A stretch of DNA of 22,687 nucleotides, taken from the IMG/VR virus record IMGVR_UViG_3300020214_000136, positions 1-22,687 of that record, one strand, 5' to 3'. Positions 3,013-22,415 of the stretch are shown in pieces. Position 1 is the stretch's first letter; the number at the start of each line of letters is the position of its first letter. Under the pieces are notes generated by a model. That model saw only the letters and a list, made by a program, of their open reading frames with translations, did not search any database and was not told where the DNA came from. This stretch comes from a virus. Made by a program: the position numbers and the translations under genes.

Positions 3013-3987
3013 TTAATTATTTCTGCGCCAACCATATCTTCCTCCAACACGGTTGGGAAGTTCATACATGTTAAATCTGTTCAAGTCATTCTTAATCCTA
3101 CGTTGTTTAGTCCAAGGATCTTGCTTCTTAATCTCAATATCAGCCATGATGAATGCTTCCTCAGCTTGTTGTTTGTAATAGGCAAGTTTGTTTTGTAGTT
3201 GGTTAAATGTTTCATCATTAGTCTGGTTAGTGAGGGTTTCCATCATTTTAAACTTGATGAAAGCCTCAATATATTCTCTGATACGGAAGTTGTTGGGAAT
3301 CATTTGATTACCCACTTGATCATACTCTGTGGCATAGAAAATCAGATGTACAATACCATTACGGAAATTGGTGACAAACTTATTGTCCCTAATATCAAAT
3401 GAGTCATACCCAGCAGCTCCAGGAGTGAATTCACGTAAAGGAGGTGCTGTCTGATAGAACTCCCAGTTATTGGTATATTCCACCCCACAGTTCCTTTGTG
3501 TGGATATGTTACCAGGCTTGAGAAGATATTCCCTACGATAGAGAACAGGAGCTTCGTTGTTTGTTTTATAGACAGTCTGTATCAACTCAGGCATGCAGCT
3601 ACCATCACATCCCACATTTCCACAGCAAGGACTAGGAATAGAACAGTCTGTAGTGATGGGACTCACCTGAATAGTAGTGGCTGTAGCAGCCTGTGAGTAG
3701 AATGAGTTGGCCTGTTGATAAGGAAAACCATCAACAGCTGTACAAAGCCATGCTTCACGGACAGCATAAAAGTTATCTGGAAGCCTAGCTTCGTAGTCAC
3801 ATAGATTTAGTACTTCCTCCTGAATTACATAGGTTGATCTACCCAGCTTTCTAAGACACTTGTCCAGATAGGTGGGGAACATCAAATCATCTACAGCGCC
3901 TGTATCGAAATAGCTTTTAAACTCTTCCTTTACAGTGGAATAGATGATGTCAGGAGAGATGAAGTTATATTTGTAATAGTAGGACAT
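3013..3987 (-). CDS. Ring/adaptor protein of the portal-tail junction
   Basis: This 324-residue protein probably belongs to the rings stacked between portal and tail. The N-terminus is helical (about 12-50), followed by LPDNFYAVREAW (69-80), a pattern typical of phage head-tail connectors. A Cys-rich insertion (115-131, five Cys) could bind metal or form disulfides. The C-terminal part has a hairpin with an N-G turn (202-213), a strand HLIFYATEYDQ (214-224), an IP loop and a helix MIPNNFRIREYIEAFIKF (229-246), then a charged coiled-coil-like tail. The same hairpin-strand-helix order recurs in the proteins at 4467-5195 and 10503-11234. It sits between the IHF-fold protein (3 bp gap) and the muzzle-like gene (5 bp gap). 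A P22 gp4-like tail stabilisation role is possible; which crassvirus ring it corresponds to cannot be decided by eye. Confidence 0.65.
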   Translation of the reverse strand: MSYYYKYNFISPDIIYSTVKEEFKSYFDTGAVDDLMFPTYLDKCLRKLGRSTYVIQEEVLNLCDYEARLPDNFYAVREAWLCTAVDGFPYQQANSFYSQAATATTIQVSPITTDCSIPSPCCGNVGCDGSCMPELIQTVYKTNNEAPVLYRREYLLKPGNISTQRNCGVEYTNNWEFYQTAPPLREFTPGAAGYDSFDIRDNKFVTNFRNGIVHLIFYATEYDQVGNQMIPNNFRIREYIEAFIKFKMMETLTNQTNDETFNQLQNKLAYYKQQAEEAFIMADIEIKKQDPWTKQRRIKNDLNRFNMYELPNRVGGRYGWRRNN

Positions 3988-3990
3988 AAT

Positions 3991-4467
3991 TTATTTTTTC
4001 CACTCCCTATAAATATTTTGGTAGTTACTATCAGTTTTTAGATAGTGTGACAACATTCTGGAGGTAGTTCTGGATGGTTTGAAATACCATAGATCAGATT
4101 GTCTGAGTCTAGCGGTGTCTTTAAACCAAACCCATCCAAAGAAATAACCCTCTGTATGAAAGTTAAAGTTGTAGATGCGTTTGCCTTTCTCTCTGGTCTT
4201 TTTCCAGTCTATGGGTAGGTTAATAAACTCTTTACCATCTACCCCCTTTATCTTTCTACGTTTCTTTTTGTTGATTGAGAACTCACCAAATCCAAAAGGA
4301 AGCTTAGCTTTTTCTCCTGTTTCTAGAATATAGTCCCTAAAAGCTTCTGTGTAGGAATAGATGATGTTTCTCCACTCTTCAAACGTTAGTTTTACTGAGG
4401 GGTTTTTCTTGCAGAAATTGTTGTAGTTTTCTTTGCTAGCACTTCTCCAGTCTATCTTTGTGCGCAT
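3991..4467 (-). CDS. IHF/HU-fold protein of the crAss-like tail module
   Basis: A basic 158-residue protein. The region from about 28 to 75 resembles the HU/IHF core: a helix EEWRNIIYSYTEAFRDYIL (30-48), then the diagnostic turn LPFGFGEFSINKK (56-68), where HU proteins have GFG-F. Beyond it the family-specific part is rich in aromatic residues: HTEGYFFGWVWF (104-115) and WYFKPSRTTSRMLSHYL (127-143). Crassvirus genomes carry such IHF-like genes next to tail genes; they were first read as nucleoid proteins, and IHF-like folds have since been linked to the tail ring assembly. The position here, between two ring/adaptor genes and overlapping the upstream gene by one base (TAATG), favours a virion role over chromosome packaging. 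DNA binding is still possible because the arm region is strongly basic (KKKRRK, 67-72). Confidence 0.65.
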   Translation of the reverse strand: MRTKIDWRSASKENYNNFCKKNPSVKLTFEEWRNIIYSYTEAFRDYILETGEKAKLPFGFGEFSINKKKRRKIKGVDGKEFINLPIDWKKTREKGKRIYNFNFHTEGYFFGWVWFKDTARLRQSDLWYFKPSRTTSRMLSHYLKTDSNYQNIYREWKK

Positions 4468-5195
4468 TAATTAGTTGGTTTAGTATTGGGGGCTTGACCA
4501 TCAATACCATCAGCTGTTATGTCTGACTTAAGAGTGAAATAAGTAGACAACAGCTTTTGAGATGTAAGCTCCAACACCTGCTTCTCCAAATAACCTGGGA
4601 GAGCAAACTCCTTATCTAACGGATTCAAGCACAACTGTTCTGTTGTGTATTCAGGAGTACCACAACCACATTCGGGATAGAGTATTTCGTTAGGAACATC
4701 CTGCTCAAATAGAGCTACAAAACGTATAGCTTTGAGCAATGGATTACTAACATATAGATAGCCATTAGTTATCCAATAGTACTCTTCCTTCTTAATGATG
4801 GGAAGTTTTAGAAGATTGATATATCTATTGATAGTTATTTCTTTCAGCTTTTTTCCTTGTCCACTCATGGCGTTAATTGAATAAACACCCTGTATGATAT
4901 ATTGATAATTACCCTCTGCAATGCTGGGAAGCTTGAATTTGCTTCTAGCCACTGAGCAGGGGTCTACATAATCACAACATTCAGAAATGGGAACTTCCAA
5001 CATCTCCAAACAGGGAATGGTGGTAAATATAGTATCAGTAGCCCATAGCTTTCTCAAGTTGGTTTCTCTCTTGATTAGCAATAGGCTATTATTTCTAATC
5101 TCAGAAGCAATAGCTCTATCTGTTATTAAGCTGTCTGTAGAGAGCAGCTTATGCATAGAGCGTGCATCTGAAACCAATTTTCTTAACGTAGGCAT
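4467..5195 (-). CDS. Adaptor/ring-type structural protein
   Basis: The 242-residue product has an N-terminal helical part (about 1-50), a middle part with four Cys (residues 62-80 and surroundings), then YYWITNGYLYV (139-149), a strand AIRFVALFEQDVP (156-168), a Cys-containing loop (176-189) and a helix LPGYLEKQVLELTSQ (199-213). The N-G hairpin, the hydrophobic strand with an acidic end and the Leu-rich Glu/Gln helix match in order the proteins at 10503-11234 and 3013-3987, pointing to a common connector-like fold. TAATG overlaps join it both to the metallophosphoesterase upstream and to the IHF-fold gene downstream, so the three are probably translated in a coupled way. A role as one of the rings between portal and muzzle is inferred from order. 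No enzymatic motif is visible. Confidence 0.6.
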   Translation of the reverse strand: MPTLRKLVSDARSMHKLLSTDSLITDRAIASEIRNNSLLLIKRETNLRKLWATDTIFTTIPCLEMLEVPISECCDYVDPCSVARSKFKLPSIAEGNYQYIIQGVYSINAMSGQGKKLKEITINRYINLLKLPIIKKEEYYWITNGYLYVSNPLLKAIRFVALFEQDVPNEILYPECGCGTPEYTTEQLCLNPLDKEFALPGYLEKQVLELTSQKLLSTYFTLKSDITADGIDGQAPNTKPTN

Positions 5196-6445
5196 TATAA
5201 GTACTGTTTGAATATATTTGTCATTCCGTCTTTACTATCTATAAGAAACCCAGTCACCTCACCTTTTGTAACTGCAAAACCATGCTTATCATCCCAACTA
5301 CTCCTGGCTGTGGAGAAAGCTGGAAGCTGGTAGAACTTAATACCATTAAAGTCCAAGCTCATTTCGTGGTGCTTATCTCCTGTAAAGATGTAGAAGTTAT
5401 CATGCAAAGACCAGTCTTCTTTATATTCCATGGGAAATAAACCAGCTAGTTTGGCAGGTTTCAGAGCATCTCCATGGTTGAACATCATAGCTGACGAACC
5501 ATAAGCAATATACTTCCTATACTTTGGAGAGATGTCAAACTTAGCACGCTCATGATTCCTGAAATAAGTTTGTAACCAACTAGCTAGATGCCAGCCTACA
5601 AACTCATCATGATTACCAGCTATAAATACCACTTCCACGTTTTTGCTTTTTTGAAGCAGAAGATTTATCACACTCACCTCATGATCACATATTGCCTGAA
5701 AAGCAGCATGATAGGAAAGGATGTTTTGCTGAGGGGTCCCTTTTGTAGTTGTATTTGTAAACTCACTATTAAACTCGTCCGATCCAATAATATACTTAAT
5801 GTCTGTAATATTATTAGAGATGGCAGCCTGATTAAGGATAATTTCTACTTTCTGAATAAAGTCACCAAACCTCTCTTCTATATCATTATTTCCATCAATA
5901 TCTAGTTTGTTTAGGTGAGAGTCTTGTTTGTTTATAATCAAACAACCATATCTTTTAGACTGCTCATATATAGGAGATACTATCTGAGGAGAAAGGGGTT
6001 CGTAAGTGTTTAGGAAAGAAATGAAGGAGTCTTGAAACACCTGCTCATCTCTCTTTTTACCCAACCAAGCTTTCACTTGATAATAAGGCTGCTCAGCATT
6101 TCCCCAGTAGTTTTGGACGTATTTAGTTATCTCCCATTTGCTTGTATCAATCTTACACTTTTCAATCAACTCCTCCAGGCTCTTGATTTCTTCTTTGGTG
6201 TTTATCACCACTTCGCCTGTTCCCTTCTGAACATCCTCAAAAAACCTTACGACATGGTCTTCTAGTTCTTCAATATAATTTCCAACCTCAGCATCCTGTC
6301 TTGCATATGTTGACTCTTTCAACTCCTTTATTAGCTCATCCACCTCCGTTTCAGTGATTTGTAGCTTTTCTGCATAGAACTTTTTGCTCTTCTTCCAATG
6401 AAGCATTTGCTCCAGCTGATGCAGAAGTGATTGATTTTCAGGCAT
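5195..6445 (-). CDS. Calcineurin-like metallophosphoesterase with N-terminal HTH-like segment
   Basis: Residues 170-416 hold the ordered motifs of the metallophosphoesterase superfamily: D175-x-H177, GSDEFN (221-226, replacing the usual GDxxD/E), GNHD (277-280), NHGD (323-326) and GDKHHE (356-361). Together they would coordinate two metal ions and hydrolyse phosphoester bonds; SbcD/Mre11-type nucleases and small phosphatases share this fold, and the substrate cannot be told from sequence. Residues 20-42 (KKFYAEKLQITETEVDELIK is the core) look like a helix-turn-helix, and a charged helical linker spans about 50-95. It is the first gene after a terminator and a new promoter, and overlaps the next structural gene by TAATG. 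An enzyme heading a tail-protein unit is unusual; it may act on host or phage DNA, or be carried in the virion. Start ATG at 6445 fits the promoter. Confidence 0.8.
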   Translation of the reverse strand: MPENQSLLHQLEQMLHWKKSKKFYAEKLQITETEVDELIKELKESTYARQDAEVGNYIEELEDHVVRFFEDVQKGTGEVVINTKEEIKSLEELIEKCKIDTSKWEITKYVQNYWGNAEQPYYQVKAWLGKKRDEQVFQDSFISFLNTYEPLSPQIVSPIYEQSKRYGCLIINKQDSHLNKLDIDGNNDIEERFGDFIQKVEIILNQAAISNNITDIKYIIGSDEFNSEFTNTTTKGTPQQNILSYHAAFQAICDHEVSVINLLLQKSKNVEVVFIAGNHDEFVGWHLASWLQTYFRNHERAKFDISPKYRKYIAYGSSAMMFNHGDALKPAKLAGLFPMEYKEDWSLHDNFYIFTGDKHHEMSLDFNGIKFYQLPAFSTARSSWDDKHGFAVTKGEVTGFLIDSKDGMTNIFKQYL

Positions 6446-6473
6446 TTATATTATAGTTTAGTTAAAATTGCCA

Positions 6474-6505
6474 TAAAGGTAAGAAACTTTTTGATATTTC
6501 CCAAA
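6474..6505 (-). promoter_or_regulatory. Bacteroidota-type promoter for the tail unit
   Basis: On the minus strand TTTG (6502-6505) is followed after 20 nt by TACCTTTA (6474-6481). This fits the Bacteroidota sigma pattern TTTG, about 19-21 nt, TAnnTTTG, with one mismatch. It lies just after an intrinsic terminator and about 30 bases before the start of the metallophosphoesterase gene. Predicted transcripts would have a short AT-rich leader. Confidence 0.6.
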
Positions 6506-6512
6506 TTATTTA

Positions 6513-6549
6513 AACATTTTCTGTTATCCATGATAACATTTTCTGTTAT
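6513..6549. repeat. Operator-like 15-bp direct repeat with central palindrome
   Basis: AACATTTTCTGTTAT occurs perfectly at 6513-6527 and 6535-6549, a 22-bp period, close to two helical turns. The junction forms the perfect palindrome GTTATC-CAT-GATAAC (6523-6537). The element ends 7 bp upstream of the TTTG box of the promoter at 6474-6505, a position typical of activator sites. No other function is evident; a regulator is not identified. Confidence 0.55.
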
Positions 6550-6553
6550 AAAT

Positions 6554-6585
6554 AAAAAACTCCCTAGGGTAAAAACCCCAGGGAG
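6554..6585 (-). terminator. Strong rho-independent terminator
   Basis: The arms CTCCCTAGGGT (6560-6570) and ACCCCAGGGAG (6575-6585) pair over 11 positions with one mismatch around a 4-nt loop, and on the minus strand the hairpin is followed by six T (6554-6559). It would end transcripts coming from the capsid and fibre genes, 38 bp after the stop of the gene at 6624-7121. It is the only convincing intrinsic terminator in the window. Confidence 0.85.
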
Positions 6586-15817: not shown

Positions 15818-18408
15818 TTTTTCTTAGGTTTCTTTGCTCTTCCTTTTGCGTTCTCTTTAGCTATAGCCAGATCATTTTGCATGTTCTCTCTAGCCACCTT
15901 TATCTTCTCTTTTTCAATAACCAGCTTATCAGCAGCTAGTCTATTCTTGGAAGCAATGTCAGCAATCTTTGCATCATATTCACGACTTGCCTTAGACTGT
16001 TCTGTAGCTAACTTGCTGATTTCCAATACATCAGGGATTCCTGATTTGTCTACATCAGGGAGTCCTATACCCATTGTTTTAGACTCAGCGTTGATAAGAG
16101 CTATCTCCTTCTTATTTATACGATCAAGCTCGTTCTGATAGTTTTCGTTTGTAATCTCCTGCTCTTTCTGCATTTGAGCTTGCTCCATCTGAGCTTGAGC
16201 AATCTGACCCTGTTGTTCCACTTGTTGTTGTTGAGTTTGCAACTGTTGCTGTTTCATGGCATCTTGCTTATCACGAAGAGTTTTAAACACCTTCTTCATC
16301 TCTCTCATAGACTTGGTGCTGTAAAGCTCAATTACATCATACAGAGATCCGCCATTCTGCATCAAAGGTTGGGCCAATTCACGAAGCTCAGTGAACATCT
16401 GTGTATCCTCAGGACGATTTGTCAAGAACACTTTCAGATCACGAAATCTAAGATCTGTACCATTAACAGATACAAAGGCACTCTCACCCTCACTCGTAAT
16501 GTAGCTGAGTGTAGATTGAGGCTTCTTAGCCTCTACATATAAGGCAGCATCAATGATAGCTTGATAGAGCTGACCTATTACATACTCATGTGCTATGAAT
16601 AAAGGTTCTGTTTGAGCATATGACTGCTGAATTGCTGTCTGTGTACCTGTAGCAGATTCACTAGGTGTAACAGATCCAAGTCTTTGTCTACTCATACCAA
16701 CAAGTTCCCAACATTCATTCTTTAGCTGTATAGCTAGTTGATAGCGAGATTGGATTTCTTGTGTACGCGTAAGGTCAATATCTCTAAACTGGTTGAAGCT
16801 AGAAGGACTCTTCAGGTTCTCAGGGCTATCGTCAATAAAGACAACACCCCTGTTTCTTGCTTCCATTTCCCACACATCCAATGCATCTTGAGCATCACCA
16901 TCCTTAGGAACAGGAATATGTCTAATGGATGTCAAATACACCTTACCCACCTCTTTCTCAAGAAGCTTATAAAGCTGGTTCATACATACATTATATAACA
17001 CCTGGAAAGGCTTCATCAAATCAACTAGAGACTTAGCATCCGTGTTCTTCACCTCAAATGTTGTACCGATGATTGGACAGTAGTTGAGAAGCTTGAAGGG
17101 TTTAACATGATAGATGTCAGGTCCAATCTTTGTACCCTGGTACCACTGATTAATCCATCCCCATTCTAGTGATTGTTCTGTAGGAATAGTGCCACCCTTG
17201 TAGTTTTCATCTACTAGCAATGACTGTTCATTACCCATCTCATCAATATAAATCACCTTACCAATCTTCTTCTTGCTTATCCAGTAGGCACGAACAACAA
17301 CATATTTATATCCAAAAGAGCTTACATTAGATGTGAGTCCTAAGAAGTCTTTTAGTCCATCATTGTTCTCTTTAATCTCTGATTCAATAATCATGCGAGT
17401 TTGGAGAACTAAGGGGTCATATGTATCATACATTACAGAGTCTATACCAGGAATCGCATTAGGATTGCCTAGGTTGGACTCACGTACGTTGATTAATCCA
17501 TAGTCTTGAAGAGATGAACGAAGGTGATCAATTTCTTCTTTGGTGAGGTCTGGGATGCTTTCAATGATTTCTGAAAGCTCCATAACTTGCACTGTACCAG
17601 CGGCATACGCCCCCTGTGCTCTACCTGTAGGATCAGAGATCCACTTACGATCAGGAGTTGTAAGAAACCATGTGTTCTTGGGGTTAGCCACCTCAATATT
17701 GAATCCCAGTTTCGAGTTATCTTCATATATATGATAGAATTCTCTGGCAGAAATTAGCAAATCGCGAAATGCATCTTCGCTCTTTTCTTTCAGATTGAAC
17801 TCAGCCTTCTGGCAGGTGAGAACGTGATTAGCCCACTTCTCAGCCACAGATGTGTAGCTATCAAGAACATCTTTGACATCCTCCATTGTGAGCTCATCAA
17901 GTTGTTCTTCGTCCATTTCCTCTCCACTAAGGACTGCTTTTTGTAATATTTTCTGTTTTGCCTGAGAAATAACGTATTGCTGGAGAATGCCAGTTTTGAA
18001 CTCTAGCTCTTCAGCTTGGCTATCATCATCAAATGCTTTCACCCTGAATGTATCAGGACGCTTGGTTATTTCACCAACTAGCTCATTAACAGGGGTGGTA
18101 ATGATGGAATACATCTTTACATATGCAGGAAGCTGTAAATCAGCTGTTAATACATCTGTAAAGCTTTTCACCTGAGGTTCTTGATAGAAATCCTCCATTC
18201 TTAGAATACCCTTCATTAAGTCATAGTTCTTAACAAAGGTGTCACGGTTTTTTATATACTCTGCATAGGATTTGTTTGCAAAGTAGTCTATAGTGTTCTT
18301 TATCCAACTCTCATCCTGCTTTTCCTTATCAGTTTTAAACTGGTCAGGAAAGATGTTAAGATAGGCATACCTGATGGTAGCATCTTTCGTATATCTAATA
18401 ATTGCCAT
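15814..18408 (-). CDS. Portal protein with Gln-rich C-terminal extension
   Basis: An 864-residue protein directly downstream of TerL (TAATG overlap), the classical position of the portal, through which DNA is packed and leaves. Its N-terminal 60 residues (WIKNTIDYFANKSYAEY, NYDLMKGIL) and the body through about 700 are mixed alpha/beta with long helices, and it is longer than most portals. The C-terminal extension (719-864) is a Gln-rich coiled coil (719-752), an EF-hand-like loop DVDKSGIPDVLE (785-796) and a charged helix rich in Lys/Glu ending in KKPKKK. The extension could reach into the capsid or bind DNA. Portal identity is strong from size, order and sequence character; the role of the extension is unknown. 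Confidence 0.85.
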   Translation of the reverse strand: MAIIRYTKDATIRYAYLNIFPDQFKTDKEKQDESWIKNTIDYFANKSYAEYIKNRDTFVKNYDLMKGILRMEDFYQEPQVKSFTDVLTADLQLPAYVKMYSIITTPVNELVGEITKRPDTFRVKAFDDDSQAEELEFKTGILQQYVISQAKQKILQKAVLSGEEMDEEQLDELTMEDVKDVLDSYTSVAEKWANHVLTCQKAEFNLKEKSEDAFRDLLISAREFYHIYEDNSKLGFNIEVANPKNTWFLTTPDRKWISDPTGRAQGAYAAGTVQVMELSEIIESIPDLTKEEIDHLRSSLQDYGLINVRESNLGNPNAIPGIDSVMYDTYDPLVLQTRMIIESEIKENNDGLKDFLGLTSNVSSFGYKYVVVRAYWISKKKIGKVIYIDEMGNEQSLLVDENYKGGTIPTEQSLEWGWINQWYQGTKIGPDIYHVKPFKLLNYCPIIGTTFEVKNTDAKSLVDLMKPFQVLYNVCMNQLYKLLEKEVGKVYLTSIRHIPVPKDGDAQDALDVWEMEARNRGVVFIDDSPENLKSPSSFNQFRDIDLTRTQEIQSRYQLAIQLKNECWELVGMSRQRLGSVTPSESATGTQTAIQQSYAQTEPLFIAHEYVIGQLYQAIIDAALYVEAKKPQSTLSYITSEGESAFVSVNGTDLRFRDLKVFLTNRPEDTQMFTELRELAQPLMQNGGSLYDVIELYSTKSMREMKKVFKTLRDKQDAMKQQQLQTQQQQVEQQGQIAQAQMEQAQMQKEQEITNENYQNELDRINKKEIALINAESKTMGIGLPDVDKSGIPDVLEISKLATEQSKASREYDAKIADIASKNRLAADKLVIEKEKIKVARENMQNDLAIAKENAKGRAKKPKKK

Positions 18409-21446: not shown

Positions 21447-21729
21447 GTTTTTTTAGTTCTTCTGCCTCTTCTTCTGTAGCCACCGCTTCCCATTTATTTA
21501 TAGGACAGGAGCAAGAGAGACATTTGGTCTTTGCAGAAAGCGTACACCCACAATGTGTGCAATGAGCGTCTGGTCTAACCGTTTTATAATTTTTAGAATG
21601 CCACGAACACTCCTCACAAATAAGGAGCCTAGATTCGCTGGTCTTTTGTATTGCTTCCCTGATTCTTTTAGGCGGCACTAAATTATTTCTCCACCCCTCG
21701 TAAAGTTGAGAAAAATTTATTGCTTTCAT
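21436..21729 (-). CDS. Zinc-ribbon-type Cys/His protein
   Basis: A 97-residue protein. The N-terminal helix (FSQLYEGWRNNLVPPKRIRE, 6-25) is followed by Cys/His ligands at C38, C41, H44, H56, C57, C60, C62, C70, C73 and C75, enough for two zinc sites, then CPINKWE (75-81) and an acidic helix. I associate the layout CxxCxxH ... HCxxCxC ... CxxCxCPxxKW with small late-region proteins of tailed phages. It could bind DNA or a packaging protein. It overlaps the HU-like gene upstream by 47 bp in another frame, which is long, but the Cys pattern begins after the overlap. Confidence 0.65.
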   Translation of the reverse strand: MKAINFSQLYEGWRNNLVPPKRIREAIQKTSESRLLICEECSWHSKNYKTVRPDAHCTHCGCTLSAKTKCLSCSCPINKWEAVATEEEAEELKKHEK

Positions 21730-22069
21730 CTATTCTTGGTTTTAAGAGCTCTATATTTGACCTTGTCGTTCCTAATTTTAGCAACGTGGCTCTTTTCCTG
21801 GCCTCTGTTAAATCAGGTAGTGACAGGGTGTTAAGAAGGGCTTTTTCTATCTTCTTATAATTGTCCATTTTCTTTATTGCCTTTCCGTCGTTGAATATAA
21901 ACTTCCCAAACCCACTGATTTCCACCATCTTATTGACATACATCGCCTCATTAGCGCTTTGGAACTGATGATTTATAACAGCCTCAATATTCTTTTCTGG
22001 CGTCATTAGCTTTACGGCTAACTTCCTAATCAAATAGTCCTTAACAGACAGGCTAATAGGCTTATCCAT
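21683..22069 (-). CDS. HU/IHF-like DNA-binding protein
   Basis: A basic 128-residue protein. Residues 8-57 match the HU/IHF core in outline: a helix VKDYLIRKLAVKLM (9-22), a second helix VINHQFQSANEAM (31-43) and the turn VEISGFGKF (49-57), with the characteristic GFGxF. After it, where HU has DNA-clasping arms, the sequence differs (NDGKAIKKMDNYKKIEKAL), and a further basic helical tail follows. Crassviruses commonly have two IHF-like genes; the second here is at 3991-4467. In this position, ahead of terminase, DNA bending at a packaging or origin site is plausible. The 8-bp overlap with the winged-helix gene points to coupled expression. Confidence 0.65.
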   Translation of the reverse strand: MDKPISLSVKDYLIRKLAVKLMTPEKNIEAVINHQFQSANEAMYVNKMVEISGFGKFIFNDGKAIKKMDNYKKIEKALLNTLSLPDLTEARKRATLLKLGTTRSNIELLKPRIDESNKFFSTLRGVEK

Positions 22070-22415
22070 GTGTCAGCTTTATTTCTAATGTTAAATCCTT
22101 GCTGAAATTTAAGAGGATGATAGGGTTCACCTTCACCTTTGTCCCATCTTTGACCAGAATACCAGACTTCTTAAGCTTGGAAATGATGTTATTTATCGTA
22201 GGACCTGTTGTTCCATACTTGGCACAAAACTCCTCTCTAATATTAGCATAGCTCATATTACCCTTAACAGCTGCAAACCCTATAAGCTCTATTTCTCTCT
22301 TAGTAAGACCTAAACTATTAACAGCAGATAATATAGAATAGTACTTCTGTGCTAATGAGAAGCTATCTGATTCAGACTTCTTTATTCTTTGTAATATCAA
22401 GCTCTTGTTTTCCAT
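22062..22415 (-). CDS. Winged-helix-like DNA-binding protein
   Basis: The first gene of the unit encodes 117 residues. The region 33-100 reads as a winged helix: helix LTKREIELIGFAAV (37-50), then helix YANIREEFCAKYG (56-68), the recognition helix TTGPTINNIISKLKKSGI (69-86) and a wing with VKDGTKVKVNP (88-98). Such proteins bind specific DNA; in this place it may control late transcription or packaging. Its promoter lies only about 14 bases ahead, so the leader is very short. The start ATG at 22415 gives a complete fold with no alternative upstream. Function as late regulator is inference; the DNA-binding fold is fairly likely. Confidence 0.65.
   Translation of the reverse strand: MENKSLILQRIKKSESDSFSLAQKYYSILSAVNSLGLTKREIELIGFAAVKGNMSYANIREEFCAKYGTTGPTINNIISKLKKSGILVKDGTKVKVNPIILLNFSKDLTLEIKLTHG

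Follow-up and report, generated by a model that had tools for sequence, protein, structure and literature searches.

The repeats described here lie in a 178-bp intergenic stretch of the window (the whole stretch of DNA that was analysed, 22,687 nucleotides), with the terminator of one unit on one side and the promoter of the next unit on the other. Because the surrounding genes are all located on the minus strand, the region has to be read in reverse. The features of the locus, and two genes encoded elsewhere in the window, are the following.

6560..6585, minus strand: intrinsic terminator of the upstream gene, an 11-pair stem followed by a T run, kept in relatives
6534..6548, minus strand: putative distal operator dyad TAACAGAAAATGTTA, centred at about -72 from the predicted transcription start
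6512..6526, minus strand: putative proximal operator dyad TAACAGAAAATGTTT, centred at about -50, 22 bp downstream of the distal dyad
6502..6505, minus strand: -33 box TTTG of a Bacteroidota sigma-A-type promoter, recognised from sequence and conserved in relatives
6474..6481, minus strand: -7 box TACCTTTA (consensus TAnnTTTG), 20 bp after TTTG
5195..6445, minus strand: first gene of the unit, for a DNA repair exonuclease family protein (phrog_704) of 416 aa whose N-terminus is HTH-like
3013..5195, minus strand: further genes of the unit, with matches to the virion structural families phrog_9863 and, weakly, phrog_34036, and to phrog_12177
22062..22415, minus strand: 117-aa winged-helix protein, leading candidate for an operator-binding regulator
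21683-22069, minus strand: HU/IHF-type DNA-binding protein (PF00216), whose gene immediately follows that of the winged-helix protein and is kept together with it

On the minus strand, the terminator hairpin (6585-6560) and its T run are followed by the distal dyad, tcatgga, the proximal dyad, AAATAA, TTTG, GGAAATATCAAAAAGTTTCT, the -7 box, a short leader and then the start codon (ATG) of the gene for the 416-aa protein. The terminator separates the upstream gene from the operator and promoter. Just before it, a second hairpin is found at 6611-6588 (minus strand). In relatives its stem varies through compensatory changes (GCCCTG/CAGGGC, GCCTTG/CAAGGC, ACTCTG/CAGAGT), and its 12-nt loop TTTGTTGGTTTT is nearly constant, also in distant relatives (core TTGGTTTT); the exact loop has essentially one occurrence per genome. 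An RNA element was rejected as an explanation of the repeats: they follow the terminator and precede the point, near 6469, where transcription is predicted to start. The fold z-score of -4.3 is no evidence for the repeats as RNA, because this value includes the terminator hairpins.

The -7 box matches TAnnTTTG except for the last letter, and nearly all relatives carry TAYCTTT at this place. The spacer between TTTG and the -7 box is 20 bp long, within the 19-21 bp of Bacteroidota sigma-A promoters. The promoter resembles these in the type and position of the -7 motif, which they carry at -12 to -5 (PMC9723704), and in the TTTG box about 20 bp further upstream. It differs from a plain promoter of this type in the conserved upstream operator. 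The downstream genes had been called a tail unit in the earlier note, which fits roughly: the unit starts with the 416-aa exonuclease-type protein and the virion proteins come after it. The HTH-like N-terminal 44 residues of the exonuclease (WKKSKKFYAEKLGITE...) are much better conserved than the remainder of the protein, the overall identity of which falls to 31% in relatives.

The earlier note had drawn attention to two perfect repeats with a palindrome between them. The 15-mer AACATTTTCTGTTAT is indeed present exactly at 6513-6527 and 6535-6549, 22 bp from start to start, and the palindrome GTTATCCATGATAAC (GTTATC-CAT-GATAAC) is located at 6523-6537. The gap of 7 bp (6506-6512) between the repeats and TTTG (6505-6502, minus strand) was likewise found as described, and so was the placement of both sites on one face of the DNA, the paired dyads being two helical turns apart. 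When the window was searched for the 15-mer with up to two mismatches, the sole additional match was an intragenic one with two mismatches at 17945; with up to three mismatches allowed, shuffles of the window average 1.93 matches. The repeats are real; the functional unit proposed for them, the 15-mer or the central palindrome, did not hold. The conserved element consists of two 15-bp dyads of the form TAAC-N7-GTTA on the minus (coding) strand, ending 6 bp before TTTG. Two such dyads at 22 bp place four half-sites in 11-bp steps.

This arrangement is common to 80 IMG/VR relatives of the downstream exonuclease protein. In the distal dyad, TAAC and GTTA are invariant in all 41 distinct relatives. 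In the proximal dyad, TAA is invariant, GTT is present in 40 of the 41, and 33 of them have A in place of the final T. The N7 of both dyads is free to vary among the same 41 relatives. Near-invariant half-sites around a variable N7 identify the 15-bp dyad TAAC-N7-GTTA as the unit. The reader's 15-mer was rejected in this role: a pair of 15-mers with 7-bp spacing matches only four close contigs. Since identical N7 in the two copies was found in only 2 of 65 distinct operators, both from the window's own sub-lineage, the exact identity of the copies is incidental to a real element. More distant relatives keep the pattern as TAAY-N7-RTTA in most members. One metagenome contig (L044) retains an intact operator and has neither the core promoter nor the bulk of the leader, AATAA being joined directly to TGCAAATG; this junction is either a real deletion or an assembly artefact.

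The pattern of paired dyads occurs 35 times on both strands of a 1.62-Mb set comprising the window and 18 related contigs, and 0 times in five Markov-shuffled sets, an excess far above what chance would give. Eleven control half-sites of equal composition were scanned in the 1.62-Mb set; ten of them gave no occurrence and ACTA gave six. An IMG/VR-wide scan for generic dyads together with the promoter pattern (at least 22 fixed bases, N7 free) found at least 119 places. Wherever a listed match has sufficient DNA downstream, a homologue of the same exonuclease follows as the next gene, with identity down to 33-35%; three listed loci, with 3, 74 and 32 bases, are too short downstream to judge the next gene. 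A DNA-level search of phages with the repeat region gave no match. That the repeats are a functionless 22-bp tandem duplication, arisen by chance or slippage in AT-rich intergenic DNA, would agree with the rarity of identical N7 pairs. However, half-sites conserved around a free N7 in dozens of relatives, and the zero count in the shuffled sets, leave this explanation hardly credible.

The dyads recur at two further fixed places in the related genomes, giving three loci per genome where the sequence allows. The first is located before a tail-fibre-like gene, the product of which starts with MPIPSRQIGW and contains collagen-like GTSGTS repeats. The second precedes a gene of about 2.4-2.8 kb, which is followed by a giant gene of 11-13 kb. 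Both sister sites carry two dyads and then a TTG-N18..21-TAnnTTTG promoter, and at the giant-gene place the second dyad is degenerate. The gap between the dyads is 7 bp at the exonuclease site and about 7-9 bp at the sister sites. From the start of the proximal dyad to the TTG of the -33 box, the distance is 22 bp at the exonuclease and giant-gene sites and 35 bp at the tail-fibre-like site. In a large contig outside the model building (G016), the scan for two dyads plus promoter matches only the three operators. In two others (G014 and G015) it matches the exonuclease site and no other. Direct inspection revealed more degenerate versions of the giant-gene site in G014, G015, G018 and G019 and of the tail-fibre site in G014. 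Only the two sister places count as independent finds here, because the contigs had been fetched for carrying the exonuclease-site pattern. In two related contigs, G027 and G028, the dyads are lost at the exonuclease promoter, and the promoter itself and the equivalent giant-gene site are kept; the operator is therefore not strictly required there.

At none of the three loci do the dyads overlap the core promoter. Since they lie upstream of an intact promoter and do not cover its core, the geometry is that of an upstream activator rather than a repressor. Paired dyads are also typical of cooperative repressors, and the dyads could in principle be operators that hold the virion promoters off early in infection. 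The core promoter left free at all three loci speaks against such repression, which we regard as unlikely. The reading of the repeats as an activator site, already proposed in the earlier note, is the best one, backed by the conservation and by the two sister sites, with activation itself presumed from them.

A close parallel is the C protein of phage Mu, a dimeric activator produced in mid-infection that binds ahead of the -35 region of several late promoters (lys, I, P and mom) and works with the host RNA polymerase (PMC4461284). As in a regulon of the Mu C type, the same palindromic site is found here upstream of several virion-gene promoters in one phage. The plan is alike, a single phage activator serving several late promoters from upstream sites, the regulator being a candidate in the present case. 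The differences from Mu C are the two dyads per promoter, the different site and the Bacteroidota-type promoter. In phage T4, a separate C-terminal domain of MotA binds DNA at a box near -30, which takes the place of the -35 element. Activation of the T4 middle promoters requires MotA together with AsiA (PMC6755090). Unlike at these promoters, the -33 box is kept here and the dyads are positioned further upstream. The candidate regulator also lacks the two-domain build of MotA: it is a single-domain protein of 117 aa that resembles the activation domain only (E 4.8e-3).

Two phage-encoded binders had been suggested beforehand, the winged-helix protein and, by autoregulation, the HTH-like N-terminus of the exonuclease. 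The first gains support from its distribution and its predicted fold, and the second is disfavoured. The winged-helix protein is present in every operator-bearing genome with adequate sequence. It was found in 10 of 10 near-complete relatives covering the terminase region and in 8 out of another 10 records; of the two without it, one or both are short fragments. Among 18 distant records, 17 have it, and the eighteenth (G027) has a fragmentary match and no terminase match. Its identity is 61-64% where that of the exonuclease is only 31-33%. The AlphaFold model of the protein is a winged helix with a mean pLDDT of 75. Its top Foldseek match in the PDB is the MotA activation domain (1bja), followed by Zur, Fur and MarR proteins; no match falls below E 1e-3, and winged-helix matches are generic. 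A sequence search of solved structures with the winged-helix profile gave no significant match.

Changes in the helix PTINNIISKLKK and the wing KVKVNP of this protein are concentrated in phages whose dyads are weak or absent. Across 33 genomes, dyad mismatches correlate with changes in these winged-helix parts (Spearman 0.66), with the rest of the protein (0.64) and with the exonuclease HTH (0.37); these values rank the candidates and prove neither, because the genomes share ancestry and phylogeny confounds the comparison. Autoregulation could be favoured from the good conservation of the exonuclease N-terminus even at 31-33% whole-protein identity. This N-terminus is, however, also conserved where the dyads at its own promoter have been lost (L343, L353 and L360), which argues against autoregulation. 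The weaker correlation with dyad quality points the same way, as does the control of different genes by the other two operators. Autoregulation is thus very improbable, and the winged-helix protein is the better candidate binder.

The winged-helix gene adjoins the terminase gene and its product has a weak Phage_rep_O match; the protein could alternatively be the terminase small subunit or a replication protein. A Pfam scan of 20 conserved proteins of one relative (G009), including the winged-helix and HU-like proteins, revealed no better DNA-binding candidate. The HU-like protein was rejected as the binder, with no evidence for sequence-specific recognition. The promoter of the winged-helix/terminase unit has a conserved box of its own, GCATAATATAGCA, at 22491-22479 (minus strand) of the window. 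In relatives, another promoter has this box upstream of it as well, for example the one before the gene for a 1138-aa protein at G009:8910, which suggests a second regulon.

A host transcription factor exploited by the phage might also bind the dyads, and the host sigma-A type of the promoter is in keeping with this. Against it stands the maintenance of the operators at three loci across relatives with exonuclease identity down to 31-35%, alongside which the winged-helix protein is retained. This joint retention suggests a linked phage factor, and a host factor is accordingly improbable.

When the major head protein was compared with the phage collection by tblastn (E <= 1e-5), only Flavobacterium phages of the Fipvunavirus type and the Leptolyngbya phage Lbo-JY46 were matched. 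The Flavobacterium phages Fpv1-4 (Fipvunavirus) are distant relatives, with 22% identity in the major head protein; their terminase, portal, head and exonuclease-virion genes are arranged much as here. In Fpv1 the exonuclease gene begins 22 bp after the preceding gene; no paired operator was seen in a scan of this genome. The phage is thus distant from Fipvunavirus rather than closely related to Fpv1. Neither Fpv1 nor the phage record collection gave a match to the winged-helix protein. The cyanophage Lbo-JY46 contains a 117-aa ORF (L383:38074-38427, minus strand) in the corresponding position upstream of its presumed terminase gene. It was rejected as a homologue because of weak homology (hhalign probability 11%); a distant relationship to the winged-helix protein is possible. 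A crAss-like origin had been suggested by the gene content and was also rejected, since the head protein matches no crAss-like isolate; the phage is not a recognisable member of Crassvirales. The promoter type and the Flavobacterium phage relatives point to a Bacteroidota host.

We propose, with a probability of about two in three, that the element serves as operator for a phage-wide regulon of late (virion) genes, bound by a dimeric phage activator that is likely to be the winged-helix protein. The 117-aa protein would be made from the terminase-region transcript. A homodimeric phage-encoded protein, most likely this one, would then bind the two TAAC-N7-GTTA dyads at about -50 and -72 and recruit or stimulate the host sigma-A RNA polymerase at the TTTG-N20-TAnnTTTA promoter. 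It would act likewise at the two other phage promoters through their equivalent paired dyads. Late genes of Crassvirales are read by the host RNA polymerase, according to reviews of that group (PMC10136315).

A literature search gave no description of this operator, which looks undescribed, though the mechanism is of a known kind. On virion-gene switching in lytic Bacteroidota phages outside the crAss group, almost nothing was found in the literature. The present analysis provides a precise operator (TAAC-N7-GTTA twice, 22 bp apart here), three promoters in each genome and a specific protein as candidate regulator. The operator can also serve as a signature for recognising this large, little-known family of uncultured phages, thought to infect Bacteroidota, in metagenomes. 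More tentatively, and at somewhat less than even odds, a new family of single-domain winged-helix activators and its two-dyad operator may form the late switch of this large phage family. Such a switch would act from upstream on host sigma-A promoters, and, with the same reserve, would differ from the strategies of T4, N4 and the crAss virion polymerase.
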